Virus record (IMG/VR): IMGVR_UViG_3300032238_000182
Span: 1 to 20,519 of that record
Direction: 5' to 3' (one strand)
Source of the DNA: a virus
DNA length: 20,519 nt
Made by a program: the position numbers and the translations under genes
The notes under the pieces: model-generated
The model's input: only the letters and a program-made list of their open reading frames with translations
Told to the model about the DNA's origin: nothing
The model's database searches: none
Shown here: positions 356 through 20,519 of the stretch, piece after piece
Numbering within the stretch: position 1 is the stretch's first letter
Layout of the letters: each line of letters starts with the position of its first letter

Positions 356-714
356 AACTTGAAAAGAGGCTACAAGTGTGTATTGAAAAGATAGTTAAAG
401 ACCATTTGAACTATACTATGTTTATTGATTGGTTTGTAGATGAATATGATATGTCTAAACACAACGCCTATAAAGAGTGGAACAAGTGTTGGAATATTAT
501 TAAGTCCCGTTTCTCATTAGAAACAGACCAACTGATAAACAAACAGATATACGAGATGTATGACCTATACAAAGAAGCAAGAGAGACAGGTGACTTTGGA
601 ACATCAAGGAAACTATTGGAGGATATAAGAAAGATACAAGGGATTGACGCACCTGAAAAGATAAACATAAAACACGAGGGAACAATCACAGTATCCTTTG
701 GGGACGAAGAATAA
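319..714 (+). CDS. Probable terminase small subunit
   Basis: 131 residues, mostly helical and charged. The first 60 residues (basic helix, then MSKHNAYKEWNKCW) fit a DNA-binding domain. The middle (LYKEARETGDFGTSRKLLED, about residues 84-103) fits the helical oligomerisation core, and the last part (IQGIDAPEKINIKHEGTI) is the kind of beta tail seen after that core in small terminases. In this family the protein forms a ring that recognises viral DNA and stimulates the large subunit. The large terminase gene lies one gene downstream, which supports the call. The stop overlaps the methyltransferase ATG as TAATG (712-716), a re-initiation arrangement. The start at 319 lies within the preceding gene; a later in-frame Met would remove the basic helix. 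No motif is diagnostic, so another DNA-binding function remains possible. Confidence 0.65.
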   Translation: MDKREFKKSTKLELEKRLQVCIEKIVKDHLNYTMFIDWFVDEYDMSKHNAYKEWNKCWNIIKSRFSLETDQLINKQIYEMYDLYKEARETGDFGTSRKLLEDIRKIQGIDAPEKINIKHEGTITVSFGDEE

Positions 715-4467: not shown

Positions 4468-4468
4468 T

Positions 4469-5758
4469 ATGGCAATAACAATAACACAGACACCCCAATA
4501 TATAAAACCATCTTATAGTGATAATGTATTAACAGTATCATCAAATCAAGTGGTATCAAAATATAAGTTCAAGTATGTATTTGATTTATTTGCTAAACCA
4601 CAAAATGGTGACCCATACACTTATTTAGGTAGGGTAAAACAAACACCTAACCCATCAGGAGTGGGTATGTTAGATTTAGGTAGATACTTACAGAATGTAG
4701 TATCACAGGATTTATATAACGGATATATGTATGATTTAGGTTGGGTGCCAGATACATTAAAACAAACATTAGGAGATTATTATGTAATGTGTGGTGAAGA
4801 ATATTCAACATCATTATCAGGTGCTACAACACTATATAACGGGTCAGGAACAGTATGTTCTACATCAACACTAACAGGAACAACCACAGGAGTTAAAGTT
4901 ACATTTAATGGTGTAAATCAATTTGAGTATGGATATTATTGGCCTGGTAATGATTTTTTTAAGGCTACAAATAGATTTTTATTATCTAACCAACCTTTAA
5001 CACAATACAGAGAAGCAGATGAGTTTATTTGTATTGGAGTATTAGCGGGTGATAATCAACAAGGATATGACGCGAATATATCAAGATTAGGATATACAGC
5101 AAAGTTCTATTTTACAGATGGAACAAACGCAACATATTATCAAGATTATGGAAATTATACAGGAGCAACTATTAATGGATATTATATGTCGGGAACTTTA
5201 CAAACTATATTAGATATTGAAGGACAGACAAAGGATTGGACGAAGGTTGAATTATCTATGTCTACGGAATATGAAAAGAGAATTATATATAAAAAGGTTT
5301 GTCCTTGGCAGAAATATAATCCCAAAGATGTTATATTCTTAAATAGATATGGAGCGTGGGATACATTTAGATTTTATGGTAGTAAAGATGAGGTTACCAA
5401 AATACAAAGAGGAACATATGAAAGAGCGTATGGCACCTGGTCTTCTTATTCATACAACTATGAAACATACGAAAGAGGAACAGATAATATATCAACTGAA
5501 TTACAAGTAGAGGGTGAGGTAATGAGTGATTTTTTAGATAGGGATATGGTAAATTGGTTGGGAGAATTATTAACATCACCACAGGTATATCTTGTGGCAA
5601 ATAACGAATTACCACATATTATTACAGGTGGGGTTCAATTATTGCCAATCAATATTACCAGTAGTGATTTTAAGAAACAAATTAAAGGAAATGTGAAATT
5701 AAGACAAGTTAGTTTCAAGTATAAATATTCAACACCGACCAGAACACAACAGTTTTAA
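4469..5758 (+). CDS. Beta-rich tail or baseplate structural protein
   Basis: 429 residues, rich in Tyr, Thr, Gly and Asn, with almost no helix-forming stretches. No signal peptide or membrane segment is seen. The N terminus (about 10-45, PSYSDNVLTVSS ... YKFKYVFDLF) looks like an immunoglobulin-like strand set. The C-terminal third (about 275-425) contains KVCPWQKYNPKDVIFLNRYG and ends in a strand pair (VKLRQVSFKYKYS), reminiscent of distal-tail-type proteins that start the baseplate. It lies immediately upstream of the giant tail-tip protein (2 bases apart), the usual place for a distal tail protein. Function is inference from position and composition; I recognise the family only as phage structural. 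Confidence 0.55.
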   Translation: MAITITQTPQYIKPSYSDNVLTVSSNQVVSKYKFKYVFDLFAKPQNGDPYTYLGRVKQTPNPSGVGMLDLGRYLQNVVSQDLYNGYMYDLGWVPDTLKQTLGDYYVMCGEEYSTSLSGATTLYNGSGTVCSTSTLTGTTTGVKVTFNGVNQFEYGYYWPGNDFFKATNRFLLSNQPLTQYREADEFICIGVLAGDNQQGYDANISRLGYTAKFYFTDGTNATYYQDYGNYTGATINGYYMSGTLQTILDIEGQTKDWTKVELSMSTEYEKRIIYKKVCPWQKYNPKDVIFLNRYGAWDTFRFYGSKDEVTKIQRGTYERAYGTWSSYSYNYETYERGTDNISTELQVEGEVMSDFLDRDMVNWLGELLTSPQVYLVANNELPHIITGGVQLLPINITSSDFKKQIKGNVKLRQVSFKYKYSTPTRTQQF

Positions 5759-5760
5759 TT

Positions 5761-8700
5761 ATGATTGATACTCTCATACAAGTAACCAATTTAAGTGGTT
5801 CAACTATATACCTTGACTTATACGATGATTTATCAGTAAATCTAAATATGTCCTTTGCGGAGATACAAGATATTACAAGTCGTAATAGTGGATACTCACA
5901 AACTTTCAGGGTGCCAGGAACACCTATTAACAATAGTTTCTTTAACTATATGTTTAATGTGAACGCAGATAATCTATCATTTGATATACAAAAATCTGTG
6001 GTATGTTCTGTGAATTACAAAGGTAATACGGTATTAGATGGTATATTAAGATTATTAAAAGTTATTATTACAAATAACAAGGTAGAATATGAGGTGAATA
6101 TACAAGATGAGGTTGGGGTGTTTATTAATAATATCAGTAACAAATTACTTACAGATATAAATTATGACGATTTAAACCATACATATAACGCAACAAATGT
6201 TAAAGCAAGTTGGGACGCAGTATATACAGGTTCAACAACAACAGGAGGATTAAAGAACGGACAGATATTATATCCGTTTCAACACATAGGTTATTTATAT
6301 GACGATACAGGTAAGATAATTACATCTGGTTCAACATCATCACCTACATTAGAATTGTATGGTAATAAAGGTTCTATCTCTCACCCTGATACACCGATGA
6401 AGACAACTGGTTTCAAGCCATCAATACAAATCAAATCGGTGGTTGATAGAATATTCAATCAAAACGGATTTACATTAGTAAGTAACTTTTTTAGTAGTGA
6501 ATATTTCAGGAGGTTATATATGCCACTCATATTCAACAACGATGGATACTTTATATCAGCAACGGGAAACACAGCGGGAACATCACAAGTATTTCAACAA
6601 ATTACAAGTCAACCATCAGGATTTAGTTTCTCTGGAACAACTTGTATGGTGATAGATGGATTTGTGGAAGTAGACGCTTATACATATAATAATGGTTCGG
6701 TATATCCTCCATATGGTTGGAACTTTACTAATGGTAGATTTATAGCACCACAAAACGGAACATATACATTTACATATTCAATTACATTACAAGTTCCAGA
6801 TGGTTACCAAAATGTTACTACTGGAATAGAAGGTTCGGTATTTTTATATAAGAATAGAACAACACAATATCTTAATAAGGATTTTATTACCTATCCTGAT
6901 ATATACGATTTTCAGGTAACAGTATCATCTACTAATTCAGTTTCAATACCATTAGTTCAAGGTGACTATATTGAAATGGTTGTTAGATGGAAACAAGGAG
7001 CAATTTATACCTGCCAAAGTTATACATTAGTAGCACCTGAAATTGTAAAAGATATTTCTGTTGTAACAATTACAGACGCACCAAATAATATATTAGGTTC
7101 AACGGTAGATGTTAATAATCAGTTTGAGGTTCCAGGAACTTATAAACAATTAGAGTTTCTAAAAGGTCTAATAACACAATTCAATCTGGTGATGGTTAAA
7201 CACCCTTATTTATCCAACACATACATAATGGAGCCGTATAGTGATTATGTAGGACAAGGGGACACATTAGATTGGACTGATAAATTAGATATGTCTAAAT
7301 CTATTGAAATATCACCATTAACTAATTTGATTGGTAAGGCGATAGATTTTGTTTATGAAGAAGATGGTGATGAGATAAACAACTATACCAAAACTATTAA
7401 CAACAATAGAAACTTTGGAACATATAACTTTATTCCATCAGGGGTAACCTTAAATGATAAACCATTAGAGTTTAAGTCGTTCTTCTCACCTTCACCAGGA
7501 AACTTTCTACCATCATACAATACCTCTAATCCTTTAATATGTCCCCAATTTTACGGGACAAAACAAGTTACTATAAGTGGTTCAACAATCACACAACTCC
7601 TTCCTATGAGGATTAAACCTCGTATATTACACTATTGTGGAAGACAAAGTATATCAGGTGTATGGTATTTTAGGGACGAGGTATTAAACGAAACTACACA
7701 ATATACAGATTATCCGTTCTTACACCATCAAGAGTTATTACCTTCAACACCAGCACAACAAGCGGTAGACCTTAACTTTGGTAATAGTAATTCACCACAG
7801 GACGCAGTAGTTCCTTCATTTACAAACCTTACAGCGTATAACTTATATTACGCAGATTATATAGATGATTTATTAGACGCTGACGCAAGAATGGTTAGTG
7901 CTAATTTCTTCCTTAATATTCAAGATGTAACCAACTTAAAGTATAGTGATTTAATATTTGTTAAGGACGCTTATTATAGAATTAACAAAATAAAAGATTT
8001 TAATTTAATTAATAATTCAACAACCAAAGTAGAGTTAGTAAAGTTATTGACTGTTGATATACAACAATTACCACCAACTCCTACTCCAACTCCAACAAGT
8101 AGTCCTACACCTACTCCAACGAGCACACCAACTCCTACGCCTACAAGCACTCCTACACCTACTCCAACAAATACACCAGCACCGATAGGGCAGTGTTATT
8201 GTTTTGAAATATGGGTTACAGGAACAACACAAGGTGGACCAGAGCCAGGAATTATTGCTACACTTGATTATAATGATTGTTATGGTGTAAGAACAGGTAG
8301 AGCGTTTTTTAATGGACCAGGTATATACAAGCAGTGTATCCAGGTCTTTGATAATGTCCCACAAGTATTTGGGGGAACAACAGGAATAGACCAAAGTAAA
8401 ATAACTATACCTGGAACAGGAAATTGTAACACAGGATATGTATGTAGTGGATATACACCAATCACTCCAACACCAACTCCTACGGCTACAAGCACTCCTA
8501 CTCCTACACCAACTCCTACACCAACTCCTACTGCTACACCAATACCTGTAAGTTTAATTGTATATACAGGAGCAACATTAAGTGCTGCTTGTGGTAATAA
8601 TATATCAACAACAGTTTGGTATATTGGTTCATTAGGAATAGGAACAGATTTATATACAACATCAGGAATGACTATTGCGGTTCAAACGCCAGGTTATTAC

Positions 8701-10242
8701 AAGTATGACGACGCAACAGTTTATGTGGTAGGTGTTCCATCAGTTCAAAATGGTAGAATTACAAGTATAGTTGCTTGTCCTACTCCTACTCCAACACCAA
8801 TACCTTCATACGAGTTTAATGTATATGTAAGTGAAACAAGTGCTAATGTCGCTTGTAATGGTGGTGATACTCCTGCGGGATTATATCATCAATTTGTTAT
8901 TACAGGTGATACAACAACATTATGTTCGTCAAACTCATTCACTTGTAGTTTTATACCTACATATGATTTTGATACTTTTTGGGTTAGTGATGGAACAAAT
9001 AGTAGACAATTACATAGAACAGGACCAGCTGGTAGTGTAGACGCAGTTCCAGATGGTGCTTGTGTATCTTGTGCTACTCCAACTCCAACTCCTACTCCTA
9101 CGGGAACACCAACTCCTACTCCAACGAGCACACCTACTCCAACTCCAATACCAAAGTTCACAGCGAGTTGGGGAAATACTTGTGAAGAAGCGAACGCTAA
9201 ATGTAGTGGTGGAGCAATACCTGTTTATGATTTTATTAGATATAGTGGAACAGGAACGACTATGTGTGATATGGAATGGGTTACTTGTGATAGTTTATTT
9301 AATAGTGGTTTAATAACAGGTTCTACTTTCTTCACAGTTCAGTGCGGAACAAATCCACAAGTGTTAAGAGAATGGCACTTATATCTACCGCCAGGTGGTG
9401 GTTCATTTAGAGCGTATCAATATGGGTCTTGTAGTTTATGTCCTACACCAACTCCAACTCCTACTGCTACTCCAACGAGCACACCTATACCACCAACATT
9501 TACTCCAACCCCAACTCCTACTGCGACAGGAACACCAACTCCTACGCCAACTAATACACCAGAACCACCAACTCCTACACCAACGAGCACACCAACCCCT
9601 ACACCTTCACCAATACCAACTTATACATACACAGTATATTTGAGTGATACATCAGCAGGAGCAGCTTGTGCGGGTGGTGATACATCATATGGTTCATATT
9701 ATTTATTTCAAGTAACAGGAAATACTACTAATATGTGTAGTTCAACAACATATAAAATTAGTGAATTACCTGTATTAGATTTTGGAACTTTCTGGATGAG
9801 TGATGGAACAAATAGTAGACAGGTTCAAAGAAATGGTGGACCAGCAAGTATAAACGCAAGTCCAATAGGTGCTTGTTCTGTTTGTCCTACCGCTACTCCT
9901 ACACCAACTCCAACGAGCACACCACAACCACCAACTCCTACTCCTACGAGCACACCACAACCACCAACACCAACTCCTACGAGCACACCAACTGGTCCAA
10001 CATATGAAATATATACGGCGGATAGATATGAGTGTGATACTCCAACTGGACCTTGTGTATATGTTGAAACAATAACAATAGCGAACCCAATTGCTGTATC
10101 TTCATATGGTAAGTTTTATTTAGATAATACATATGGTTACATATTTAATATTGTATCAAGTGGAGGGTCTGGTCCTTATTTGTATGTTGATATTACAAAT
10201 ACAACAGGAACTAATAACTGTAAATCGTTATGTAATATATAA
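5761..10242 (+). CDS. Giant tail-tip protein with Pro-Thr-linked Cys modules (putative adhesin)
   Basis: 1493 residues in two halves. The first 770 have no repeats; residues 41-68 (RNSGYSQTFRVPGT then N-rich, F-rich text) match, from memory, the N-terminal domain of tail-tip or baseplate proteins in phages of Bacteroidota. This half is probably the virion anchor. From residue 771 six globular modules alternate with six Pro-Thr linkers: linkers 771-808, 900-929, 1007-1016, 1106-1131, 1228-1286 and 1376-1413; modules 809-899, 930-1006, 1017-1105, 1132-1227, 1287-1375 and 1414-1493. Modules carry paired Cys, often ACxGG near the start and CxxC at the end; modules 3 and 5 are duplicates. A chain of small disulphide-capable domains on extended linkers suggests carbohydrate or surface binding, by analogy with PT-linked enzymes and adhesins. 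No hydrolase motif was recognised. It precedes the tape measure, against the usual order. Confidence 0.75.
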   Translation: MIDTLIQVTNLSGSTIYLDLYDDLSVNLNMSFAEIQDITSRNSGYSQTFRVPGTPINNSFFNYMFNVNADNLSFDIQKSVVCSVNYKGNTVLDGILRLLKVIITNNKVEYEVNIQDEVGVFINNISNKLLTDINYDDLNHTYNATNVKASWDAVYTGSTTTGGLKNGQILYPFQHIGYLYDDTGKIITSGSTSSPTLELYGNKGSISHPDTPMKTTGFKPSIQIKSVVDRIFNQNGFTLVSNFFSSEYFRRLYMPLIFNNDGYFISATGNTAGTSQVFQQITSQPSGFSFSGTTCMVIDGFVEVDAYTYNNGSVYPPYGWNFTNGRFIAPQNGTYTFTYSITLQVPDGYQNVTTGIEGSVFLYKNRTTQYLNKDFITYPDIYDFQVTVSSTNSVSIPLVQGDYIEMVVRWKQGAIYTCQSYTLVAPEIVKDISVVTITDAPNNILGSTVDVNNQFEVPGTYKQLEFLKGLITQFNLVMVKHPYLSNTYIMEPYSDYVGQGDTLDWTDKLDMSKSIEISPLTNLIGKAIDFVYEEDGDEINNYTKTINNNRNFGTYNFIPSGVTLNDKPLEFKSFFSPSPGNFLPSYNTSNPLICPQFYGTKQVTISGSTITQLLPMRIKPRILHYCGRQSISGVWYFRDEVLNETTQYTDYPFLHHQELLPSTPAQQAVDLNFGNSNSPQDAVVPSFTNLTAYNLYYADYIDDLLDADARMVSANFFLNIQDVTNLKYSDLIFVKDAYYRINKIKDFNLINNSTTKVELVKLLTVDIQQLPPTPTPTPTSSPTPTPTSTPTPTPTSTPTPTPTNTPAPIGQCYCFEIWVTGTTQGGPEPGIIATLDYNDCYGVRTGRAFFNGPGIYKQCIQVFDNVPQVFGGTTGIDQSKITIPGTGNCNTGYVCSGYTPITPTPTPTATSTPTPTPTPTPTPTATPIPVSLIVYTGATLSAACGNNISTTVWYIGSLGIGTDLYTTSGMTIAVQTPGYYKYDDATVYVVGVPSVQNGRITSIVACPTPTPTPIPSYEFNVYVSETSANVACNGGDTPAGLYHQFVITGDTTTLCSSNSFTCSFIPTYDFDTFWVSDGTNSRQLHRTGPAGSVDAVPDGACVSCATPTPTPTPTGTPTPTPTSTPTPTPIPKFTASWGNTCEEANAKCSGGAIPVYDFIRYSGTGTTMCDMEWVTCDSLFNSGLITGSTFFTVQCGTNPQVLREWHLYLPPGGGSFRAYQYGSCSLCPTPTPTPTATPTSTPIPPTFTPTPTPTATGTPTPTPTNTPEPPTPTPTSTPTPTPSPIPTYTYTVYLSDTSAGAACAGGDTSYGSYYLFQVTGNTTNMCSSTTYKISELPVLDFGTFWMSDGTNSRQVQRNGGPASINASPIGACSVCPTATPTPTPTSTPQPPTPTPTSTPQPPTPTPTSTPTGPTYEIYTADRYECDTPTGPCVYVETITIANPIAVSSYGKFYLDNTYGYIFNIVSSGGSGPYLYVDITNTTGTNNCKSLCNI
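8809..9075 (+). repeat. Adhesin module 3, paralogue of module 5
   Basis: Encodes residues 1017-1105 of the tail-tip protein, exactly 267 bases, the same length as the copy at 9619-9885. Aligned by eye with no gap, about 47 of 89 residues match, including ACxGGDT, TGxTT, CSS, FWxSDGTNSRQ and GACxxC. Silent positions differ in many codons, so the duplication is old. Confidence 0.85.
9619..9885 (+). repeat. Adhesin module 5, paralogue of module 3
   Basis: Encodes residues 1287-1375. It lines up residue for residue with module 3 (8809-9075). The best conserved DNA is a 23-base identical run coding SDGTNSR (begins AGTGATGGAACAAATAG). One Cys of module 3 (in SFTCSF) is replaced by Ile here, so the disulphide pattern is not identical. 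Confidence 0.85.
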
Positions 10243-10282
10243 TGATTAAACAATAAAAGATATATAATACAAAGAGAATAAT
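10243..10282 (+). promoter_or_regulatory. Short AT-rich intergenic leader before the tape measure
   Basis: Forty bases contain ATTAAACAATA (10245-10255), a TATAAT hexamer (10263-10268) and a weak purine tract AAAGAGAA before ATG 10283. The same ATTAAACAATA followed by TATAAT occurs in the gap after the tape measure (12737-12753). It could be a promoter or merely an AT-rich translation leader. No clear -33 TTTG / -7 TAnnTTTG pair of Bacteroidota type is visible. Confidence 0.3.
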
Positions 10283-12736
10283 ATGGCGTCATTTAAAGAG
10301 TTTAAGGTAAAAGTAACGGTTGATACAAAAGACGGGAACGAACAGTTAGAAAAAACTATCAATACCTTATCTGGATTTGAAGAACAGATTAGTGCGTTAA
10401 GAACAAAATTAGCGTCAACACCAATAGGAACAAAAGAGTTTAAGGAACTATCAAATGAATTATCAAGAACTGAAAAGGCGTTTGGTAAAGCACAAGATAG
10501 TGGTAAGAGTTGGTTACAATCAATATCGTCAGCACCAGGTATTGTAGGTCAATTAGGACAGTCAATTCAAGGTGCGGGTAAGTTGTTCGGTTCATTTGAT
10601 ATGGCGTTAAAAACATCTGTTGTAGGGTTTATAGCAACTCTTATAGCAAAACTTGTAGAAAAGTTTAGTCAAATGGAAGGTGTGTTAGACCCTTTAAATA
10701 AAATCACAGCAATATTCTCCGCAACAATCGGTAAGTTGGCTGATTTTATATTACCTCCAATATCAGCACTACTTGAAGGTATTGCGTCAGGAGCAGAAAA
10801 GGTTGTTAATTTCTTTGGCAAGTTGACGGGTGATAGTGGTAATTTAGGAGACGCGTTAGGTGATTTAGCGGACAGACAAGACGCACTAAACGATAGTCAA
10901 GCAGAATATGAGTTAGGTTTATCTAAATCAAGTAGAGCGTTGGCGGAAGCAAGGGAAGCCGCAGCAGATGGGACAAAATCAGTTAAAGAAAGAAAAGAGG
11001 CACTACAAAACGCGGATAAGATTGAAAGAGAAATTGCGGCACAAGGTAAAGCGAGAGCGTTAGAACAGGCGAGAATTAAGGCGGGTGAATTGGCTGCGTC
11101 ATTAGGATATACAACAGAACAAATTGAGAATATCAAGAAATATGATAAAGCACAATTAGAAAGTTTTGCGGCAGAGATTAAACAAAGGAAAGGATTAAGT
11201 GCGGAACAAAGAAACCAATTACTACAACAATTAGGAACGATAGAAGAGATTGACGCCAACACAGCAAAGATTGGTAAGAAGACAGCAGCAGCAATTAAAG
11301 GAATTGATAGTGAGGTTGCGGCACAAAGGAAACAAGCGGCAGCAGATGAATTAGAAAGACAAAAGAATAAATTAAACGCACAGATTGAATTAGAAAAGAA
11401 CAAGGTTAATACAGATGAAAAAACATTAAGAGCCTATCTTGAAAAGAAAGATGAGTTAGAAAATAAAGGAACTAAAAAATCAGCAGAAGAATTAGAGTTA
11501 CAGAAACAGAACAGGGATAAGGCGGTAAAAGACGCACTTAAAACAGACACAGACGCAAGTGAAGCAAAGACAAAGAAAGACAAGGAAGACCAACAGAAGA
11601 GAGATGATGATTATATCAAAGGTGTTAAACAAAGAGATACTAATGAAATAACAGAAGCAGAGATATTATTAGAAAAGAAAAAAACATTATACGGAGCGGA
11701 AAGTCAGGAGGTTAAGACCCAACAAGAGGTAATATACGCTGCCAAACAAAAAGCAATAAAAGATGAGATTGACGCAATTGCGTTAAAGAAAGACCAAACC
11801 GAAGCAGACAAACAAAGATTAATTGATTTAGGTAATGAAAATCTTAAATTAACTAATACCATATTGGCTGGTAAGAAGGCGGAGACAGACGCAGAAAAGA
11901 AGAAACAAGAAGATAAAATAGCGTTAGACGCAGCCAAACTTGAATATGAATTAGGACAAGAACAAACCACATATGATAGAAAGGTTGAAATATTACAGAA
12001 AGAACAGGATTTAGCCAAAGAAGATTATGATAAAAAATTGGCGTTGGCGGGTGACGACGCAGTTAAGAAGGGTAATATTGAATTAGAATATACAAAGAGA
12101 AAGGCGGAGTTAGGTAAGAAGAGAGAAGATATTGATAATAAGGAATATGAGAATAAGATAAAAATAGCACAAGGGACAGCAAATATGTTAGGTGCGTTGG
12201 CTGACCTTGTTGGTAAAGATACATTAGCGGGTAAAGCGTTAGGTATATCACAAGCGTTAATCAACACCTATGTCGGTGCGAGTGAGGCGATAAAACAAAA
12301 ATCTACATTACCATCACCGTTTGATGTTATTGCGAAAGTTGTGAATGTGGCAACAGTAATTGCGACAGGTCTTAAAACGGTTCAAGCCATCACAGCGGTT
12401 ACCGTTCCTGATAATCAAGTTCCAGAGGTTAGAATAAGAAAGGCGATGGGTGGTATATTACAAGGGCCAACACACGCTATGGGTGGTATAGCAACTCCTT
12501 TTGGTGAATTAGAAGGTGGTGAGTTTGTGGTGAATAGAGCGTCAACACAGATGTATAGACCACAATTAGAAACAATAAACGCGTTAGGTGGTGGAGCAAG
12601 GGACTACAACTATTCAGGATTTAATGGTAATATTACTAATAACGAACCACCAATATTCAAGACCTATGTTGTAGCAAGTGAAATGTCGTCCCAACAAGAG
12701 GTAGACAGAATAATACAATCAAGGTCTAAAATCTAA
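10283..12736 (+). CDS. Tail tape measure protein
   Basis: 817 residues. Residues 1-80 are a charged helical head; about 111-128 (VVGFIATLIAKLVEKF) and 141-177 are hydrophobic or amphipathic segments, as usual in tape measures. About 195-635 is a long Lys/Glu/Ala/Gln coiled coil (for example ELERQKNKLNAQIELEKNK). About 640-720 is a second hydrophobic region. The C terminus carries the typical Gly-rich end MGGILQGPTHAMGGI and GELEGGEFVVNRAS. The family sets tail length during tube polymerisation and may later reach the host membrane. At the usual rule of about 1.5 angstrom per residue, it predicts a tail somewhat over 100 nm (inference). No peptidase or lysozyme domain was recognised. The start is after AAAGAGAATAAT. 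Antisense reading frames within it are by-products of its repetitive codons. Confidence 0.92.
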   Translation: MASFKEFKVKVTVDTKDGNEQLEKTINTLSGFEEQISALRTKLASTPIGTKEFKELSNELSRTEKAFGKAQDSGKSWLQSISSAPGIVGQLGQSIQGAGKLFGSFDMALKTSVVGFIATLIAKLVEKFSQMEGVLDPLNKITAIFSATIGKLADFILPPISALLEGIASGAEKVVNFFGKLTGDSGNLGDALGDLADRQDALNDSQAEYELGLSKSSRALAEAREAAADGTKSVKERKEALQNADKIEREIAAQGKARALEQARIKAGELAASLGYTTEQIENIKKYDKAQLESFAAEIKQRKGLSAEQRNQLLQQLGTIEEIDANTAKIGKKTAAAIKGIDSEVAAQRKQAAADELERQKNKLNAQIELEKNKVNTDEKTLRAYLEKKDELENKGTKKSAEELELQKQNRDKAVKDALKTDTDASEAKTKKDKEDQQKRDDDYIKGVKQRDTNEITEAEILLEKKKTLYGAESQEVKTQQEVIYAAKQKAIKDEIDAIALKKDQTEADKQRLIDLGNENLKLTNTILAGKKAETDAEKKKQEDKIALDAAKLEYELGQEQTTYDRKVEILQKEQDLAKEDYDKKLALAGDDAVKKGNIELEYTKRKAELGKKREDIDNKEYENKIKIAQGTANMLGALADLVGKDTLAGKALGISQALINTYVGASEAIKQKSTLPSPFDVIAKVVNVATVIATGLKTVQAITAVTVPDNQVPEVRIRKAMGGILQGPTHAMGGIATPFGELEGGEFVVNRASTQMYRPQLETINALGGGARDYNYSGFNGNITNNEPPIFKTYVVASEMSSQQEVDRIIQSRSKI

Positions 12737-12756
12737 ATTAAACAATATATAATAGT
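12737..12756 (+). promoter_or_regulatory. Short leader before the protease gene, shares motif with the tape-measure leader
   Basis: The 20-base gap is ATTAAACAATA (12737-12747) running into TATAAT (12748-12753) and then ATG 12757. The same two words precede the tape measure gene at 10245-10268. It marks the boundary between tail and head genes. Whether it is a promoter is unknown. Confidence 0.3.
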
Positions 12757-14052
12757 ATGAAGATAGTAGAATTATTTATAGACGATACAGAAGATATGGC
12801 GGGTGGTGAAGCCATCGCTATGGTTCAACGACCAGCACACGAGAGTGACTTTGTGGCGTTTAATGATGAAAAGAAATGTGATAATTTCTTCGCAGCGTTT
12901 AGTGATAAACAGGAAGAGATTGTCTTAACAGAGGAAGAACAAGAGAAAGTATTACATCAGTTCAGTAGTATGGGTGAAGACCACCAGTCATTTATGATGA
13001 AGGGTTATTACATCAAATCAGTTGAACCTATTAATTTTACTCCTAACTATGTTAAAGAAAAGTTCGCAGCAACTGATATTAACGCAAGACCTATTACAGA
13101 TGTATTAAACGATAAATCAGTAATGGATTATAGTGATGGTGAAGGTAAGTATAAAGTAAGATTTAGATACGCAGTAAGACCTGGTCGTCCAGCAATTATC
13201 AATACAACTCGTAAGTTTTGTAAAGAGATGATTAACGCTAATAAGACCTATCGTCTTGAAGATATAAATAAAATCCTAAACGGTTTCCAACAATACGGAC
13301 AATCAAGTTGGGGTAGTGCGTTCTTCAAGTTCGGTGGCCCTAACTGTAACCATATATGGGTTAAGATAGTTTATCAACAAATATTTGATAAGAAAGGTGT
13401 TCCAACAGGTAAGTATAAGACCATTAGCGAACAAGACAGAGGAGACGCAGCGAACATCGCAGGTTCTAATTTAAACCAAAAAACTATGGATAATCCATCA
13501 CCTCAAACTATTAGACGAGCAGGACAAGGTATGTTTAGTGCGGAGGATATACAAAAGTTTAATGAAGAATTAAAGAAACAATACTTAATGGCGGGGTGTG
13601 TTCTAATCCCCGACAAGTTGATATACAGAGTAGACCCTAATACCAAAGAGGAATATTATGTATATTTTTCAAAAGAAAGTGTAAAGAAAATAGCGTTCAA
13701 GTATATGAGAGACAAGAACACTACTAACACTAATATAGAACATAACCCCAATCAACCAATAGATAATGTAACTCTTGTTGAAAGTTGGATTGTTGACGAC
13801 CCTGAAAATGATAAATCAAATCAATATGGTTTCAAGTGTGAACCTGGAACCTGGTTCGGTGTTGTGGATTGTAGTAAAAATCAAAAGTTTTGGAACGACT
13901 ATGTTGAAAATGGTAAAGTTCAAGGATTTAGTTTAGAAGGATATTTTGAAAGTAAATTAACAAAGTTTTACGAAAATCAAAAAAAACACTCCAATATAGA
14001 TGTAGATACATATATATTGTTAGAGATTGAAAATCTATTAAATAAAGAATAA
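12757..14052 (+). CDS. XkdF-type prohead protease with an embedded head-morphogenesis-like module
   Basis: 431 residues. The C-terminal part has the XkdF-like serine protease pattern: a helix KIAFKYMRDK, then IEHN (H329), VESWIVDDP (341-349), GTWFGVV (364-370) and KVQGFSLEGYF (387-397) with the putative nucleophile S392. The N terminus (VELFIDD ... GGEAIAMVQRPAHESDF) is the start of the same protease family. Between them lies an extra region (about 130-205): VRFRYAVRPGRPAI, TTRKFCKEM and GGPNCNHIW. It looks like the C-terminal Cys/His segment of Mu gpF-type minor head proteins. In the cell this protease would cleave scaffold and other prohead parts before packaging. It lies just before scaffold and capsid genes, the normal place. 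Start and catalytic assignment are by pattern only. H329 and S392 are the residues to test. Confidence 0.75.
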   Translation: MKIVELFIDDTEDMAGGEAIAMVQRPAHESDFVAFNDEKKCDNFFAAFSDKQEEIVLTEEEQEKVLHQFSSMGEDHQSFMMKGYYIKSVEPINFTPNYVKEKFAATDINARPITDVLNDKSVMDYSDGEGKYKVRFRYAVRPGRPAIINTTRKFCKEMINANKTYRLEDINKILNGFQQYGQSSWGSAFFKFGGPNCNHIWVKIVYQQIFDKKGVPTGKYKTISEQDRGDAANIAGSNLNQKTMDNPSPQTIRRAGQGMFSAEDIQKFNEELKKQYLMAGCVLIPDKLIYRVDPNTKEEYYVYFSKESVKKIAFKYMRDKNTTNTNIEHNPNQPIDNVTLVESWIVDDPENDKSNQYGFKCEPGTWFGVVDCSKNQKFWNDYVENGKVQGFSLEGYFESKLTKFYENQKKHSNIDVDTYILLEIENLLNKE

Positions 14053-14053
14053 T

Positions 14054-14905
14054 ATGACCCCTACACAAAAATTACAACAAATTAAGAATTGGATATTCAG
14101 TTGGAACAGTCAACACTCTTTCAAGAGAGTTACTGATTTAAGTGGAAACCAATTTGAGGTAGATGGTGAATTAGAAACAGGTAAGGAGTTTTACGCAATA
14201 CAAGAAGATGGTATGATTAAACCCGCAGGAGATGGCGAGTATCATATTGACGGAAAAGTATTAAATGTTATTGAAGGTTTAATCGCCGCAGTAATATCAG
14301 GTAACAGAGACCTTACCGAAAAACAAATAAACCCAGAAGGAAATAAAAAAGAAACTATGGCAGAAAATGTAAAAATGGTTACAGACAGTTTGTTAGACGG
14401 AACTGAAATTAGTATCACAGGCGACAAAGTTGTTGCGGGTGCTGATATTCGTATTATGAAAGACGGACAAGAGTTGTTACCAGCAGCAGGAGAATTAGAA
14501 TTAAAGTCAGGTTCAGTTGTTATTGTTGATGAGAATGGTAAAATCACAGAGGTTAAAAGCGATGTGGAACCAGCGAACACCGATGAAACACAAAGTGAAG
14601 CTGATGAAGCTACTGAAATGGCGGCAAAAGATGTTATACCAGATACAGGTGTAGTTAATATTGAAACTATACACGGTATGATGAAACAAATGATGGAAGC
14701 AATTAGCGACCTTAAAAATAAAGTAGGTTCAGTTACAGACAAGCAAGAAAAAATGAAAGAAGAGTTTAATTCATTTAAGAAGGCACCAGCAGCAGAACCA
14801 CTAAAAAGAAATACTATAACAGGTAAAGATAATTACCGTTTTGGTTCAGGTGAAAATCCAAAAGTAGCGATGTTAGAAGCACTTAAAGGACATTTCAACA
14901 AATAA
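14054..14905 (+). CDS. Capsid scaffold-like / assembly protein
   Basis: 283 residues. It contains two related beta-type repeats, about 26-80 (VTDLSGNQFEVDGEL ... KPAGDGEYHIDG) and about 109-167 (VTDSLLDGTEIS ... LPAAGELELKSG). These share the order VTD, G, DG, PA, GE, G. They are followed by an acidic linker (SDVEPANTDETQSEADEA) and a helical C-terminal end (residues about 205-283: MMKQMMEAISDLKNKV, then KMKEEFNSFKKAPAAEP). The helical, charged tail directly upstream of the capsid gene is typical of scaffolds that nucleate capsid assembly and are removed by the protease. The Ala/Pro-rich AAEPLKRNT could be a cleavage or capsid-binding region (inference). An in-frame ATG at codon 102 has a strong-looking A-rich leader, so a shorter product may also be made. 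Decoration/cement function for the N-terminal repeats is an alternative. Confidence 0.6.
   Translation: MTPTQKLQQIKNWIFSWNSQHSFKRVTDLSGNQFEVDGELETGKEFYAIQEDGMIKPAGDGEYHIDGKVLNVIEGLIAAVISGNRDLTEKQINPEGNKKETMAENVKMVTDSLLDGTEISITGDKVVAGADIRIMKDGQELLPAAGELELKSGSVVIVDENGKITEVKSDVEPANTDETQSEADEATEMAAKDVIPDTGVVNIETIHGMMKQMMEAISDLKNKVGSVTDKQEKMKEEFNSFKKAPAAEPLKRNTITGKDNYRFGSGENPKVAMLEALKGHFNK
14338..14359 (+). promoter_or_regulatory. Possible internal translation start in the scaffold-like gene
   Basis: GAAGGAAATAAAAAAGAAACT precedes an in-frame ATG (14357, residue 102). It combines a GGA core with an A-rich stretch like those before the capsid gene. Starting here would give a 182-residue protein lacking the first beta repeat, comparable in logic to lambda Nu3 nested in C. 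Not demonstrated. Confidence 0.3.
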
Positions 14906-14934
14906 TAAATAAAAAAATAAAAAAAAAGAAAAAA
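14906..14934 (+). promoter_or_regulatory. A-rich translation leader of the capsid gene
   Basis: The 29 bases before the capsid ATG are nearly all A, with a few T and one G, and have no Shine-Dalgarno sequence. A-rich unstructured leaders are associated with high translation in Bacteroidota. It is the most A-rich leader in the window, as expected for the most abundant virion protein. Confidence 0.55.
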
Positions 14935-15888
14935 ATGAGTAATTTAAAAAAATACGATTTTACTTTTAACTTATCAGGGTTACAAGATTATACAGAACAA
15001 AAAACATCTACCTTGATTAGTGAAACAGTTTTAACAGGAGATTTTGCGCAACAAGTTGTTGTTGTGCCTAATGTGAAGGGCGTTCAAGAATTGAATGTGT
15101 TGTCTTCACACTTACAAGAATTAGATGGTGGTTGTGGTTGGAACCCAGCGAATAGCGGTCAAACTACAACATTCACACAAAAATCAATTACATCTGTAAA
15201 GAAGCAGTATCAAGAGAGTTTGTGTGTAGACCAATTAGAAGGTTACTGGTATCAAACTTTATTGAAGCCAGGTCAATACTACGATAGTCCTAATGATATT
15301 CCATTTGCGGAATATTTGGTGAACTACAAAGTAGAACAAGTTAAAGAAGCAATTGAATTAATGTTATTCTCTGCGACAGAAGGTTCAACAGGATTTGATG
15401 GTTTCATCGCTTTAACAGGTGCGGACTACACAGGAGCAACTGGTAATGTAACAATCGTTCCAGCGGCGTCAGGTCATACAGCAGCGAACATCGGTGATAG
15501 TATTGATTTGATGTTGGCAGAAGCACCAGATTATTTAGCGGCAGCAAAAAATGGTGCCATCTTTATGAGTTGGTCTAATTTCCGTAACTATACAGTTTGG
15601 GTGAGAAACAAAAACTTTTTCTACTTACAAACTCCTGGTGACGGTCAAGCAAAAATCTTACATCCGGGTTCTAATTTTGAAGTAATTCCAGTTCACGGTT
15701 TAACGGGGTCTAATCGTATCTTCATCGGTAAGAAAGATAATTTCTTTATTGGAACAGATTTAGTTAGTGACTACTCACAATTCAAAATGTGGTATAGTTT
15801 AGACAATCAAGAGACAAGAATGAAATGTCAGTTCCGTATTGGAGCACAAACAGGTGTAGACCAAATTATATCAAACGGTTTAGCGTAA
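14935..15888 (+). CDS. Major capsid protein (HK97 fold)
   Basis: 317 residues. The pattern is that of HK97-fold capsid proteins of this phage group: an N-terminal arm; a spine-helix region (PFAEYLVNYKVEQVKEAIEL, about 124-143); a central GATGNVTIVPAAS loop region; and the C-terminal part IFIGKKDNFFIGTDL ... FKMWYSLDNQETRMKCQFR, resembling the P-domain end strands. It probably self-assembles with the scaffold into the icosahedral shell. Context is strong: protease and scaffold genes upstream, the most A-rich leader of the window, and an intrinsic terminator 14 bases after the stop, all signs of very high expression. No delta-domain propeptide is obvious, which agrees with a separate scaffold. 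Fold assignment is by pattern and context, not by structure. Confidence 0.85.
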   Translation: MSNLKKYDFTFNLSGLQDYTEQKTSTLISETVLTGDFAQQVVVVPNVKGVQELNVLSSHLQELDGGCGWNPANSGQTTTFTQKSITSVKKQYQESLCVDQLEGYWYQTLLKPGQYYDSPNDIPFAEYLVNYKVEQVKEAIELMLFSATEGSTGFDGFIALTGADYTGATGNVTIVPAASGHTAANIGDSIDLMLAEAPDYLAAAKNGAIFMSWSNFRNYTVWVRNKNFFYLQTPGDGQAKILHPGSNFEVIPVHGLTGSNRIFIGKKDNFFIGTDLVSDYSQFKMWYSLDNQETRMKCQFRIGAQTGVDQIISNGLA

Positions 15889-15902
15889 ATATAACTTTAA
15901 TT

Positions 15903-15927
15903 GGGGAGATTAATTTCTCCCCTTTTA
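15903..15927 (+). terminator. Intrinsic terminator after the capsid gene
   Basis: A perfect 7-bp stem GGGGAGA / TCTCCCC (15903-15909 with 15916-15922) closes a 6-base loop TTAATT and is followed by TTTTAAT. The downstream T tract is short (four), so partial read-through to the tail-tube gene is likely. On the other strand there is no T tract, so it acts on rightward transcripts only. Confidence 0.85.
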
Positions 15928-15964
15928 ATAAACAAATAAATAGAAAAAATAAAAATATAAAAAT
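15928..15964 (+). promoter_or_regulatory. A-rich leader of the tail-tube gene
   Basis: Thirty-seven bases, almost all A and T, from the end of the terminator to ATG 15965, without a Shine-Dalgarno sequence. It resembles the capsid-gene leader. A separate promoter would have to lie in or across the terminator; none is evident. Confidence 0.45.
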
Positions 15965-16525
15965 ATGGCTTGTAGTGTAAGTTCAGCGTATGGTTTAGGT
16001 TGTAAAGGTGGTGTTGGTGGTATCCAAACCCTTTATATCTTTTCAGCGCCAATCACAGGTATTACTTACTCTGGTTCAGGAGATACTCAAATCATTACCG
16101 ATATTGCTGGTAGTGGTTCATTAGTAGAGTTTCAATTATACAGAGGTGGTAGTAACTTTACAGAAAATATGGCTGCTGACCCTGCGACGGGAACAGTAGT
16201 ATATACTCAAACAATCACAGCGTTGTTTAGAGATTATAGCGCACAATTAAGAAACCAATTTTCTCTTTTAGCGAAGAGTGGAACGGTTCAAGCGTTAGTA
16301 AGAACGAATAGAAACCAATACATTTTATTCGGTGCTGATTTTAATGGTGGTGACGCAACAGCAATTAACTTGGCGTCAGGAACTGCTTATACAGATAGAC
16401 AAGGTTACGATGTAACTTTGACTTTCTTACAAGCAAATCCTGCCTCATTTGTTAATATCTCTGCCCCAACATCAGCGGGTTTAGACGCAGCTTTAACAGG
16501 TATCACTCCTGTTTTACCAGCGTAA
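15965..16525 (+). CDS. Probable major tail tube protein
   Basis: 186 residues, beta-rich. It begins MACSVSSAYGLGCKGGVGGI, two Cys and a Gly-rich turn, a start I associate with tail-tube proteins of phages infecting Bacteroidota. Central text (TITALFRDYSAQLRNQFSLL) is the usual single helix between strand pairs. The end (VNISAPTSAGLDAALTGI) is a flexible tail. In tubes of this fold the protein forms stacked hexameric rings around the tape measure. It has its own A-rich leader and its own terminator, as expected of an abundant virion component directly after the capsid gene. A second decoration protein is an alternative. Confidence 0.62.
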   Translation: MACSVSSAYGLGCKGGVGGIQTLYIFSAPITGITYSGSGDTQIITDIAGSGSLVEFQLYRGGSNFTENMAADPATGTVVYTQTITALFRDYSAQLRNQFSLLAKSGTVQALVRTNRNQYILFGADFNGGDATAINLASGTAYTDRQGYDVTLTFLQANPASFVNISAPTSAGLDAALTGITPVLPA

Positions 16526-16544
16526 TAAAAAATAAAAACACAAT

Positions 16545-16577
16545 AAGGGTGGAGCGTAAAGTTCCGCCCTTTTTTTT
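16545..16577 (+). terminator. Strong intrinsic terminator after the tail-tube gene
   Basis: An 11-bp stem, AAGGGTGGAGC (16545-16555) with GTTCCGCCCTT (16561-16571), closes a 5-base loop GTAAA. It includes two G-T wobbles and is followed by six further T. This is stronger than the one after the capsid gene. It ends 8 bases before the next ATG (16586), so the following genes depend on read-through or on a promoter that is not evident. Confidence 0.9.
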
Positions 16578-16585
16578 AATTAGAT

Positions 16586-17158
16586 ATGTTACACTTAAAT
16601 ATTAACGCTTTAAACTCTTGTGATGTTACGGTTAGTAATGAAAGTGAATTAACTAATCCTACATACCTGTGGGTCTTAACTAATTTGGAAACAAAAGTTA
16701 AAAAGTATTTTATACCTTATAACGCAACAGTTCCACACGCAGGTAGATATGATACATTTACATTCACATCTTATCCATTACAACCAGAGGTATTAACAGG
16801 TTCAACTTGTAATATACATTTACAACAAGGACAATATAGATATACTATATACGACCAGGTTAGTCAAACTAATCTTGACCCATTACTTTCAAATAGTATG
16901 GTTGAAACAGGATTAGGAAATGTTCCACAAGCGGAGATTTGTTTTACTGAATATACAGACAACAACCCTTTTAGCGAGGCGGTAGTTTATAATGACCCAA
17001 CTTGTTTTATATCCTACATAAGTCCTAATGATGAAACAATAATGGTTGTGTATTACAACCCTGGTATTTGTAGAGACCCAATAAAATGGAACACTGCGAA
17101 TGTTGATTGGCAATACGCGAACTTTAATTGGGAAAATGAATATCCAATTTATAATTAA
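16586..17158 (+). CDS. Structural protein of unknown function (tail-associated family)
   Basis: 190 residues, beta-rich, no signal peptide. Features: an N-terminal strand with CDVTVSNESELTNPTYLWVL; a middle GQYRYTIYDQVSQTNLDP (about 92-109), followed by VETGLGNVPQ; and a Tyr/Asn/Trp-rich end (NVDWQYANFNWENEYPIYN). I recall proteins with this 'yTIYeQ.S..NLDp ... VE.G' pattern next to tail fibre genes in phages from gut and water, with no established function. The start follows the tail-tube terminator by 8 bases without a Shine-Dalgarno sequence. Fourteen bases separate it from the fibre gene, so it is probably a fibre-attachment or accessory tail protein (inference). Confidence 0.55.
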   Translation: MLHLNINALNSCDVTVSNESELTNPTYLWVLTNLETKVKKYFIPYNATVPHAGRYDTFTFTSYPLQPEVLTGSTCNIHLQQGQYRYTIYDQVSQTNLDPLLSNSMVETGLGNVPQAEICFTEYTDNNPFSEAVVYNDPTCFISYISPNDETIMVVYYNPGICRDPIKWNTANVDWQYANFNWENEYPIYN

Positions 17159-17172
17159 AATATACAAGATAG

Positions 17173-20100
17173 ATGAGCACATTATTCGGTAATAATATTT
17201 CACAAACCTATCAAGGGTTAATAAAGTTGGCAGACAGCACAACAGGGGTTACATCAACCACACAATCATTTCAAGATGGTTTGGGTAATAATATCCCTAT
17301 TCAAGTTTCCAACACAACAGTTAATATATCAGGTTCATTTTTAGTGAATGGGAAACCTGTTGAAATTGATACAGGTTCACTTGTGTCTAATGTTAATGGA
17401 TACAATTATCCAACAAAGACAGATAAAATTAAAGTAACTTTCGGTGATGGAACAACCCAATCTTTTGTGGTTGATAATGTTGTAAGTTCATCTTACGCAC
17501 TAACATCATCATTCGCGTTAAATGTGCCAGACAATTTAATTACAACTGGTTCATATGGAACAAGTCAATCAATATCAGGTTCACTTATATTAGATAATGT
17601 TACAGGAAATACATTAATAGTATCAGGTGGTTATATAGATACAGAAATAGGTATGGCTTATCCATCAGCAAAGTTTCAAGGAGGAGTTGAATTATATGAA
17701 ATGATTGATATTAGTGGCAACACATTATCACCATATATTTCATTAGTAGGTGGAGTTAGTGGAGCAACAAATCCAGGTATTAATATTAGTATGGATACTA
17801 CTAATGGTGGTTTTGGTGGAGTTTTAATTAATGACCCAACATTAGGACATACAGTTGGTATGGCTTTGTCTAAATATAATTTAGATGGAGAGCAATTAGG
17901 AGGATTTTATTATGGATTTGGTTCAAGTAATAATACTCCATATGGTCCAGGTTCTAATGATAATTCAATATTATATACAAAACTTAATAGTAATAAATTA
18001 TACATAACAAGAGATACAGATTTAACTGGTTCATTAAAAGTATCAGGTGGAGCAAATATAACAGGTTCGTTAATTGTAAGTGGAAATATTACAGCAAATA
18101 GTGGTTCTTTCAAATATCTACAAACGATATATGAAACAGCGTCAATTATATATTCAAGTGGTTCTAACCAATTAGGTGACGCAAGTAATGATACACAAAC
18201 TTTATGGGGAACAGTTAATTTACCATCTGGGCCATTATCTATTACAGGTTCATTATATGTTTCATCTTCACAACAAAGAGATGTTATTGTTGAAGGTCAA
18301 GTATATATTACAGGTTCAGCAATAGCGTCAGGTTCAGCAACACAACCACGACTTATTATATCAGGAGCAGTAGCGGGAACAACAAACGGTTCAAGAAGCG
18401 GTTCAGTTACAATACTACCATCAAGTATTTCTATTATAAGAGGAGATAGTAATGTATCTTTTACACAAAGTGGATTTGCTGCGTTTGGGACTAATTCAAG
18501 ATTAGCAACCAATTCAACAACAAGTAGTTTATTAAGTTTATTACAACTTGATAATAGTGTAAGTCCATTAGGTAGTGGGTTTCAAATAAATACAACTAAT
18601 ACAGGAACAGTATTTCAAGATTATGATAATCAAACTGGTTTAGATAGTAGTTGGTTAAGTATTGGTGTTAATAAATTAGGAAACCAAAATCCTATTCCAC
18701 AAATGTTAAGAGGTTTAGGAGTTACAGGTTCATTATTAGTAAATGGTTCACCAATAACATCAGGTTCAAGTGGAACATCTGGAACGAGTGGTTCAAGTGG
18801 TTCTAATGGTTCTAATGGTTCGTCAGGAACAAGCGGTAGTAATGGTAGTGATGGTTCAAGTGGAACATCTGGTATAGATGGAACATCAGGAACAAGCGGT
18901 AGTAATGGTAGTAGTGGAACAAGTGGAACATCAGGTTCATCAGGTAGTGATGGAACAAGTGGAACATCAGGTAGTTCAGGTATATCAAACTCATTCTTTA
19001 ACTATCAAGCAAAGACAAACTCACAAGCAGGAGACCCTGGTTCAGGACATATCATTTGGAATAATGTAATACAATCAGGTTCAACACAAATTAATATTAA
19101 TGATTTAGACCAACAAGGAAATAACCTTGATGTATTTTTATCACAATTAAAGAGTGGTTCAAGAATTACTTTTCAAGACAAAGCAAATCAAGGTAACTAT
19201 CAAGTATGGGATATTGGAACATCAGTAGATAATACTACTTATTGGTCTTATCCTGTTACATTAGTTTCATCAACACACGAGTTTAGTAATAACGACCAAA
19301 TATTATTTATCATCACAACAACACCATCAGGAACATCAGGTAGTTCAGGAACGAGTGGTATAGATGGAACATCAGGCACAAGTGGAACATCAGGTTCTAA
19401 TGGTAGTTCAGGAACTGCTGGTTCGTCAGGAACAAGCGGTAGTAATGGAACATCAGGAACATCAGGTTCAAGTGGGTCTAATGGTTCGTCAGGAACATCA
19501 GGTTCTAATGGTAGTTCAGGAACATCAGGTTCTAATGGAACGAGTGGTAGTAATGGTAGTAGTGGAACATCAGGTAGTTCAGGTTCAACAGGAACATCAG
19601 GAACAAGTGGAGTTGGTGTTGGTTTAAATACAAAACAATATTATTTTACAACAACAGGTTGGACGGGAAATAATCCATATACAAGAGATATAGTATTTAA
19701 TATACCTTTTAATGACGACACATATATGATTGATGTTGTTTGGAGGATAGGTGGAATTACTACAACAAACGGAGGTAGAGATTGGAACTATTCAACAGTT
19801 GCTGGAACACAAGTATATTATACAAGTAAAACAGCGTCAGGATTTACATTAAACTTTGGTTCATCTAATAATGTTACATCTGCTGGTAGTGAGGTATGGG
19901 TTCAATTAACCGCTAATGGTGAGTTAGGTGTTCCAGGAACATCAGGAACATCTGGTAGTAATGGTTCATCAGGAACAAGTGGTTCTAATGGAACATCAGG
20001 TTCTAATGGAGCACAAGGTAACCCTGGAACTAATAGTGGATTTGTTTATACATTTTCAACTAATACAGGTTCAACTAATCCAGGTGCTTCTACATTCAAG

Positions 20101-20519
20101 TTTAATAATGTTGCGTCAACAGGAACAACAATAATTTACATTAATCAAAATGACGCAGTTAGTAATGATTTAAACTTATGGTTACAAAGTTTTTCAGGTT
20201 CAACAAGCACTATGAAAGGATATTTACAAATCCTTATACCTGGAAATGGTAACCAATATAATTATCAAGTTACAGGTATTTCAAAAAGTGGAACAACAGG
20301 TAATTTTTATTATTCAGTTAATGTAACATATTCAGGTGGATATGGAATATACGCAGATATTCCTAATATAACAAATTGCCAGTTAAGTTTTATACCAACA
20401 GGTAATATCGGTGCGTCAGGTTCATCAGGAACAAGTGGTTCATCAGGTATATCAGGTTCATCAGGAACAAGTGGTATATCTGGTTCATCAGGAACAAGTG
20501 GTGTTGGAACATCAGGAAC
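17173..20519 (+). CDS. Collagen-like tail fibre (3' partial, runs off the window)
   Basis: The frame is open from ATG 17173 to the last base with no stop: at least 1115 residues. Residues 1-70 (LFGNNISQTYQGLIK, then a TTQSFQDGLGN stretch) fit the virion-attachment start of fibres in this phage type. Residues about 80-530 contain SSYALTSSFAL, repeated 'ITGSLxVSG' strands and LGDASNDTQTLWG (334-346), typical of trimeric beta fibres. Then four Gly-X-Y arrays (531-605, 720-812, 919-954, 1077 to the edge) alternate with globular domains (606-719, 813-918, 955-1076). X and Y are mainly Ser, Thr, Asn and Asp, with almost no Pro. Fibres of this kind form extended trimers that carry receptor-binding knobs. 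The receptor is unknown, the real C terminus is missing, and a chaperone gene may lie beyond the edge. Confidence 0.85.
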   Translation, partial: MSTLFGNNISQTYQGLIKLADSTTGVTSTTQSFQDGLGNNIPIQVSNTTVNISGSFLVNGKPVEIDTGSLVSNVNGYNYPTKTDKIKVTFGDGTTQSFVVDNVVSSSYALTSSFALNVPDNLITTGSYGTSQSISGSLILDNVTGNTLIVSGGYIDTEIGMAYPSAKFQGGVELYEMIDISGNTLSPYISLVGGVSGATNPGINISMDTTNGGFGGVLINDPTLGHTVGMALSKYNLDGEQLGGFYYGFGSSNNTPYGPGSNDNSILYTKLNSNKLYITRDTDLTGSLKVSGGANITGSLIVSGNITANSGSFKYLQTIYETASIIYSSGSNQLGDASNDTQTLWGTVNLPSGPLSITGSLYVSSSQQRDVIVEGQVYITGSAIASGSATQPRLIISGAVAGTTNGSRSGSVTILPSSISIIRGDSNVSFTQSGFAAFGTNSRLATNSTTSSLLSLLQLDNSVSPLGSGFQINTTNTGTVFQDYDNQTGLDSSWLSIGVNKLGNQNPIPQMLRGLGVTGSLLVNGSPITSGSSGTSGTSGSSGSNGSNGSSGTSGSNGSDGSSGTSGIDGTSGTSGSNGSSGTSGTSGSSGSDGTSGTSGSSGISNSFFNYQAKTNSQAGDPGSGHIIWNNVIQSGSTQININDLDQQGNNLDVFLSQLKSGSRITFQDKANQGNYQVWDIGTSVDNTTYWSYPVTLVSSTHEFSNNDQILFIITTTPSGTSGSSGTSGIDGTSGTSGTSGSNGSSGTAGSSGTSGSNGTSGTSGSSGSNGSSGTSGSNGSSGTSGSNGTSGSNGSSGTSGSSGSTGTSGTSGVGVGLNTKQYYFTTTGWTGNNPYTRDIVFNIPFNDDTYMIDVVWRIGGITTTNGGRDWNYSTVAGTQVYYTSKTASGFTLNFGSSNNVTSAGSEVWVQLTANGELGVPGTSGTSGSNGSSGTSGSNGTSGSNGAQGNPGTNSGFVYTFSTNTGSTNPGASTFKFNNVASTGTTIIYINQNDAVSNDLNLWLQSFSGSTSTMKGYLQILIPGNGNQYNYQVTGISKSGTTGNFYYSVNVTYSGGYGIYADIPNITNCQLSFIPTGNIGASGSSGTSGSSGISGSSGTSGISGSSGTSGVGTSG
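18763..18987 (+). repeat. Gly-X-Y array 1 (25 triplets)
   Basis: Seventy-five residues in perfect Gly-X-Y phase, with only Ser, Thr, Asn, Asp and Ile in X and Y and no Pro. DNA is made of 9-base blocks such as GGAACATCA, GGTAGTAAT and GGTTCAAGT. Confidence 0.95.
19330..19608 (+). repeat. Gly-X-Y array 2 (31 triplets)
   Basis: Ninety-three residues in phase, again without Pro. GTS, GSS and GSN dominate. It links the globular domains at residues 606-719 and 813-918. One GTA triplet (coding Gly-Thr-Ala) breaks the Ser/Thr/Asn monotony. Confidence 0.95.
19927..20034 (+). repeat. Gly-X-Y array 3 (12 triplets)
   Basis: Thirty-six residues in phase between the second and third globular domains. 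It contains two Pro (GVP at the start, GNP near the end) and a GAQ, so the ends look more like classical collagen than the middle does. Confidence 0.9.
20401..20519 (+). repeat. Gly-X-Y array 4 (continues past the window)
   Basis: Starts GNI GAS GSS GTS and continues to the last base with one phase slip (GVGTSG). Its end, and whatever domain follows, are not in the window. Confidence 0.9.

Follow-up and report, generated by a model that had tools for sequence, protein, structure and literature searches.

Restriction-site avoidance in phages and other mobile elements

Restriction-site avoidance is already known, and the closest described cases are dsDNA phages in which type II-like sites were wholly lost despite large expected numbers (Rusinov 2018, PMC6286503). 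In that study, 7.1% of the hosts' orthodox type II sites and less than 0.5% of other site types were counted as eliminated, at an observed/expected ratio below 0.1 (PMC6286503). Lineage-specific motif loss in environmental phages has been described for pelagiphages, which are depleted in GANTC (PMC9516812). In plasmids the set of hosts shapes the avoidance of restriction targets, and the carriage of methyltransferases is the other route (PMC10359461).

The sequence described here is an extreme variant of this phenomenon, with an exceptional breadth. It is a 20,519-base virus record (IMGVR_UViG_3300032238_000182, positions 1-20519; hereafter the window, meaning the whole stretch of DNA that was analysed), an incomplete fragment of an uncultured phage. 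In contrast to the phages of Rusinov 2018, at least 23 words are lost from it at once, asymmetric words are among them, amino-acid changes were forced, and the word list shifts between close relatives. Pelagiphages are depleted in one motif, whereas the window is depleted in more than twenty. In plasmids the effect is a statistical shift that concerns 6-bp words, and for 4-bp words there was no correlation with host range, whereas 4-bp words are nearly eliminated here.

Phage KHP30 of Helicobacter pylori avoids mainly GTAC, TCGA and ACGT. Its host species possesses a repertoire of many short-site restriction systems (PMC3936762). The words of this repertoire are similar in number and style to those found here (GTAC, CATG, TGCA, ACGT, TCNGA, GANTC). 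The window differs in that TCNNGA, CCWGG and GTNAC are not avoided.

Gene content of the window

The window has a GC content of 0.348 and encodes 16 genes, all on the plus strand according to the ORF list. It is derived from a tailed dsDNA phage lineage, as indicated by the terminase large subunit, the phage protease families and the origin of the record as a virus contig. No integrase was found in this incomplete 20.5-kb fragment. The main features are:

319..714, plus strand: probable terminase small subunit, by position and by conservation ahead of TerL in relatives; no family match in PHROG and Pfam searches
714..1415, plus strand: DNA methyltransferase (PF01555) with a TSPPY motif, probably N4-cytosine (Pfam 5e-38; PHROG 67 1e-58)
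1396..2619, plus strand: terminase large subunit, TerL (PHROG 2 5e-56; Terminase_6N 1e-24)
5761..10242, plus strand: large protein of 1493 aa with PTPTPTSTP repeats (ORF), the first gene of the stretch in which the first-pass annotation had noted a codon-pair pattern
10283..12736, plus strand: probable tape-measure-like protein of 817 aa, by length and composition; no match in family searches including PHROG and Pfam
12757..14052, plus strand: protein with a phage serine protease (XkdF-like) domain (PF14550 2e-11; PHROG 24921 1e-38), with weaker PHROG matches to portal/protease families
14935..15888, plus strand: putative major capsid protein, by position after the protease; no family match, IMG/VR relatives 77-96% identical
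17173..20519, plus strand: fibre-like protein with SGTSGSSGSNG repeats (1115 aa; the ORF stays open where the window stops)

An A-rich leader (14890-14955) precedes the putative capsid gene and gave weak matches across many Bacteroidia genomes, which are probably a matter of low complexity.

The best PDB match of the methyltransferase at 714-1415 was the DNA cytosine-N4 methyltransferase 8s9m (6e-44), and the 8s9m and 8s9n chains were the closest solved structures. The TSPPY sequence of this PF01555 protein contains the SPPY catalytic motif, and methylation of cytosine at N4 would be its putative activity. The interval between the terminase genes (714-1396) is a variable cassette, occupied by this N4C-type methyltransferase in the window and by other methyltransferases and a GT2-like glycosyltransferase in the relatives L002, L004, L006, L007, L011-L014 and L032.

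Words missing from the window

The first-pass annotation had claimed that certain codon pairs are forbidden within positions 5761-20519, and a tabulation of codon pairs pooled over the 16 genes bore this out, with every named pair at zero. Asp was encoded by GAC and never by GAT before C (30 cases) and before GCA (22 cases), Asn, Tyr and Phe before GCA ended in C (8, 5 and 4 cases) and never in T, and His before G was always CAC (12 cases, CAT 0). Val before C was GTA in none of 34 cases, compared to 155 of 355 elsewhere, and Gly was never GGT before AC of Thr (0/86) and never GGA before TC (0/76). The uniform choice that had been proposed for all other contexts did not hold, as GAC occurred 83 more times there and CAC and CAT were used 21 and 22 times. 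The pattern was indeed present in the proposed stretch, but this was drawn too narrowly, since the absence of the words spans positions 1-20519.

Across this whole window GATC, GTAC, CATG, CTAG, ACGT, TGCA and TCGA had zero occurrences, with Markov expectations for the seven tetramers of 71, 54, 44, 42, 36, 31 and 14. Summed, they were found 0 times versus 320 expected, and the lowest of 200 synonymous shuffles, which preserve the protein, the codon counts and the codon-junction dinucleotides, still contained 286. A greedy search over words with 4-6 specified bases and gaps, in which the words already found were masked at each step, yielded about 20 independent words, and refinement of degenerate positions resulted in 23:

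1..20519: eliminated tetramer palindromes GATC, GTAC, CATG, CTAG, ACGT, TGCA, TCGA
1..20519: eliminated gapped or degenerate palindromes GANTC, CTNAG, TCNGA, CAWTG, AGWCT, TGWCA, CTNNAG, GANNTC, TGNNCA, GTWWAC, RAATTY
1..20519: eliminated asymmetric words ATGC, GATNAC, GAAGT, GGATG, CCAAG
6520..6523, plus strand: the sole ATGC in the window, from the listing of residual sites

Together the 23 words were present at 10 sites versus 912 expected from synonymous shuffles of the whole window, each with an expectation of at least 17 and an observed/expected ratio of at most about 0.1. Their absence extended to all codon phases and to either strand. Eighteen are symmetric with restriction-type degeneracy and five are asymmetric. 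The non-palindromic ATGC/GCAT was found once versus 66 expected, and asymmetric words were depleted in both orientations (observed/expected: ATGC 1/35 and GCAT 0/30; GATNAC 0/22 and GTNATC 0/12; GAAGT 2/38 and ACTTC 0/18). Sharp boundaries separated the eliminated words from similar ones: RAATTY was missing (0/42) while other AATT sites were normal, GTWWAC was missing (0/26) but GTWSAC was not (30/33), and TGWCA was nearly lost (1/35) but TGSCA was not (27/19). Fixed, W, R/Y and N positions that are so sharply delimited form the signature of recognition by proteins.

These results were reproduced outside the sequence on which the words had been defined. Words learned on positions 1-10242 were observed 15 times versus 306 expected in the held-out half. 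The 23 words of the window gave observed/expected counts of 58/1147 in L002 (a record of 25.6 kb), 6/254 in L003 and 11/747 in L090, a very close member of the same lineage whose homologous region overlaps in part with the window. The agreement between the held-out half and the relatives contradicts a selection effect from picking words on the same data, and an assembly or library artefact is contradicted by the same zeros in contigs from several metagenomes. Eight known phages used as controls each showed 0-1 eliminated elementary palindromes versus 14 in the window, and the method recovered avoidance of GATC in T7 and phage K and of GGCC in SPO1. In seven control phages (first 20.5 kb each) the 23 words reached 85-98% of expectation.

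Silent and protein-changing routes of removal

We compared the window to L004, a relative that keeps many of the words and whose homologous sequence is 78% identical. None of 104 aligned avoided tetramers survived in the window versus 277 of 534 control tetramers, in agreement with the earlier proposal of a selection on DNA words that acts mostly via synonymous choice. Silent changes accounted for 57 of 100 scorable cases at avoided sites versus 43% for controls, with third codon positions dominating, and the route of removal is mainly silent. Changes away from avoided words consisted of about as many transitions as transversions in most pairs.

The further statement of the first-pass annotation that the selection does not act via protein change was not supported. 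About 43% of the aligned avoided sites also altered an amino acid, and dipeptides that force a word were depleted. Met-Gln and Met-His, both of which force TGCA, occurred once versus 66 expected in 19 TGCA-avoiding loci, compared to 224 versus 250 expected in 65 TGCA-keeping loci. For Met-Pro, which forces ATGC, the same comparison gave 5 versus 25 and 245 versus 183, and control dipeptides showed no shift between the two groups of loci. This shows that where a word is forced by two residues, as in Met-Gln and Met-His, the protein changes instead.

Lineage-specific word lists among relatives

Among TerL relatives in IMG/VR a nearly identical list was common to the window, L090, L002, L003, L005, L009 and L021. 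Other close relatives carried different lists. L004, with a TerL 96% identical, lacked CATG, CTAG and ATGC but kept GTAC, ACGT, TGCA and part of GATC; L032, with a TerL 98% identical over the 199 residues present, kept GTAC, ACGT and TGCA; and in L006 only few words were missing. Additional words were avoided by L007 (GTNNAC, TTATAA, TTTAAA) and L049 (GTNAC, AATATT, TTATAA, AGCT). On the TerL tree at least 9 changes were counted for GTAC and 11 for TGCA, which is fewer than with shuffled labels yet many. The state of a word is thus lineage-specific with repeated switches, and the list changes by lineage.

The record of L032 contains GTAC 103, ACGT 52 and TGCA 22 times. Within it, these three words are almost missing from some 1.6 kb that surround the terminase genes, and likewise from the stretch 8700-10599; the TerL DNA there is 94% identical to that of the window. 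The presence of a stretch nearly free of words that the rest of the record holds suggests a module swapped by recombination.

Some further observations were made in relatives. L049 (1-21155) represents another branch with a long list of its own, and AATATT, TTATAA and GTNAC, avoided there, are retained by the window. In L018 (1-11239) CANNNNNNTG was found once versus 28 expected, and the same word has been reported as methylated in Mycoplasma dispar (PMC6385981). The distant TerL relatives L055, L056, L062, L069, L070 and L074 showed an over-representation of GATC (in L056, for example, 247 sites versus 192 expected), contrary to the window, and these sites are perhaps protected by methylation.

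Restriction pressure as the proposed cause

Very probably, many type II-like restriction systems of the hosts have exerted purifying selection against the missing words, with methyltransferases of the phage as a backup. Unmethylated DNA containing a word would be cut on entry and the word would thereby be purged, for the most part via silent codon changes and, at forced dipeptides such as Met-Gln and Met-His, via a change of the protein. On this account, which is the simplest, each eliminated word might be targeted, now or in the past, by a restriction system of hosts met by the lineage, and we infer the presence of such enzymes in these hosts. Word lists would track the systems met per lineage, which might be why close relatives differ. 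As twenty or more systems are too many for most single hosts, the list probably adds up the systems of different strains or of different times.

About half of the 23 words are sites of known type II enzymes, namely RsaI, DpnII, NlaIII, BfaI, HpyCH4IV, HpyCH4V, TaqI, HinfI, DdeI, Hpy188I, ApoI and FokI. To our knowledge, no restriction enzyme matches AGWCT, CAWTG, GTWWAC, ATGC, GATNAC, GAAGT or CCAAG. Methylation motifs have been described in unrelated organisms, namely CTAG, CTNAG, CTNNAG, GTNNAC and TGNNCA in an algal giant virus (PMC12700378) and CTNNAG in Mycoplasma dispar (PMC6385981). The five asymmetric words count against this explanation, as elimination in the phages of Rusinov 2018 concerned almost only orthodox type II sites (PMC6286503). 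The near absence of both orientations of these words points to enzymes for which a single site suffices for cutting and not to type III enzymes, which need head-to-head pairs.

The methyltransferase at 714-1415 is probably a second anti-restriction route, and the methyltransferases of the variable cassette would probably protect words that could not be purged or are not yet purged. Comparison of methyltransferase type and kept word across relatives revealed no simple match; the same 181-aa methyltransferase type was encoded by L002, which avoids GTAC, and by L032, which keeps it.

We suspect that the hosts belong to the Bacteroidota. Matches of TerL in Chitinophagaceae genomes were 33-36% identical, which is a weak hint to the host. 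A CRISPR spacer search with the whole window against 396 genomes of the family of Pollutibacter and 395 genomes of its class gave no clear spacer, and the matches in these about 800 Bacteroidia genomes were low-complexity and repeat matches only.

Alternative explanations

Some of the words, mainly the asymmetric ones, might be avoided due to other defences, such as CRISPR PAMs or BREX- or type III-like systems. We know of no type II enzyme for ATGC, GATNAC, GAAGT and CCAAG, and motif depletion related to CRISPR has been the subject of a study in phages (PMC4246573). Both orientations are nearly absent, however, unlike what is expected from orientation-dependent type III cutting, and a full elimination of PAMs would not be expected, so that we consider this explanation unlikely.

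It is more doubtful still that sequence-specific nucleases of the phage itself destroy the host DNA and that its genome is free of their sites. Exact zeros and lineage-specific lists would likewise be expected, and the window is a 20.5-kb fragment beyond which the gene content is unseen. Yet about 23 specificities would require about as many nuclease genes, whereas the 16 genes of the window comprise one methyltransferase and otherwise only structural genes, and family searches of the window gave no restriction nuclease.

A mutation bias, for example by decay of methylated sites, is highly improbable. Methylated cytosines are prone to mutation, but the zeros are exact over 20 kb and the words have no common cytosine context. 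The substitution spectrum, with its similar share of transitions and transversions, and the loss of dipeptides where a word is forced contradict this explanation.

There is hardly any case for a general avoidance of short inverted repeats, hairpins or other DNA structures, even though many of the words are palindromes of the 2+2 type whose halves are 0-2 bases apart. The claim of the first-pass annotation that palindromes never form was too general, as the avoided set is a discrete list that includes five asymmetric words. Relative to the shuffles, AATT, TTAA, ATAT and TATA occurred at normal or almost normal levels, the counts of GCGC and CGCG matched or approached expectation, and AGCT was partially reduced (6/31). 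Gapped palindromes were retained (observed/expected: TCNNGA 64/60, CANNTG 107/117, GTNAC 70/79, ACNNGT 105/110), as was CCWGG (28/26). These kept palindromes and the eliminated asymmetric words contradict a generic avoidance, as do the sharp R/Y and W/S boundaries and the relatives that keep the same words.

An ordinary codon or codon-pair bias for translation, considered because the signal was first noticed as codon pairs, is next to impossible, being contradicted by the absence of the words in all codon phases and on both strands, by shuffles that hold codon counts and junction dinucleotides fixed, and by relatives whose homologous proteins are encoded with the forbidden words.

Implications for uncultured phages and their hosts

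Avoidance usually concerns one or a few sites, whereas here a 20-kb coding stretch falls about 900 sites short of the expectation for 23 words. This shows the reach of silent change in a virus, and where proteins must alter. In our estimate the chances are about even that the restriction repertoire of uncultured hosts can be read off the list of missing words, and that some lineages answer more than 20 systems by sequence alone, banning dipeptides. If true, undescribed specificities would be part of this repertoire, with AGWCT, CAWTG, TGWCA, GTWWAC, ATGC, GATNAC, GAAGT, CCAAG and GANNTC as candidates. Since close relatives carry different lists, these lists amount to a natural experiment in which the pressure from restriction in wild communities can be followed. 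The restriction enzymes used by the hosts of this phage may have left their record in the fragment, and the lists name testable and partly undescribed recognition words for these uncultured hosts.
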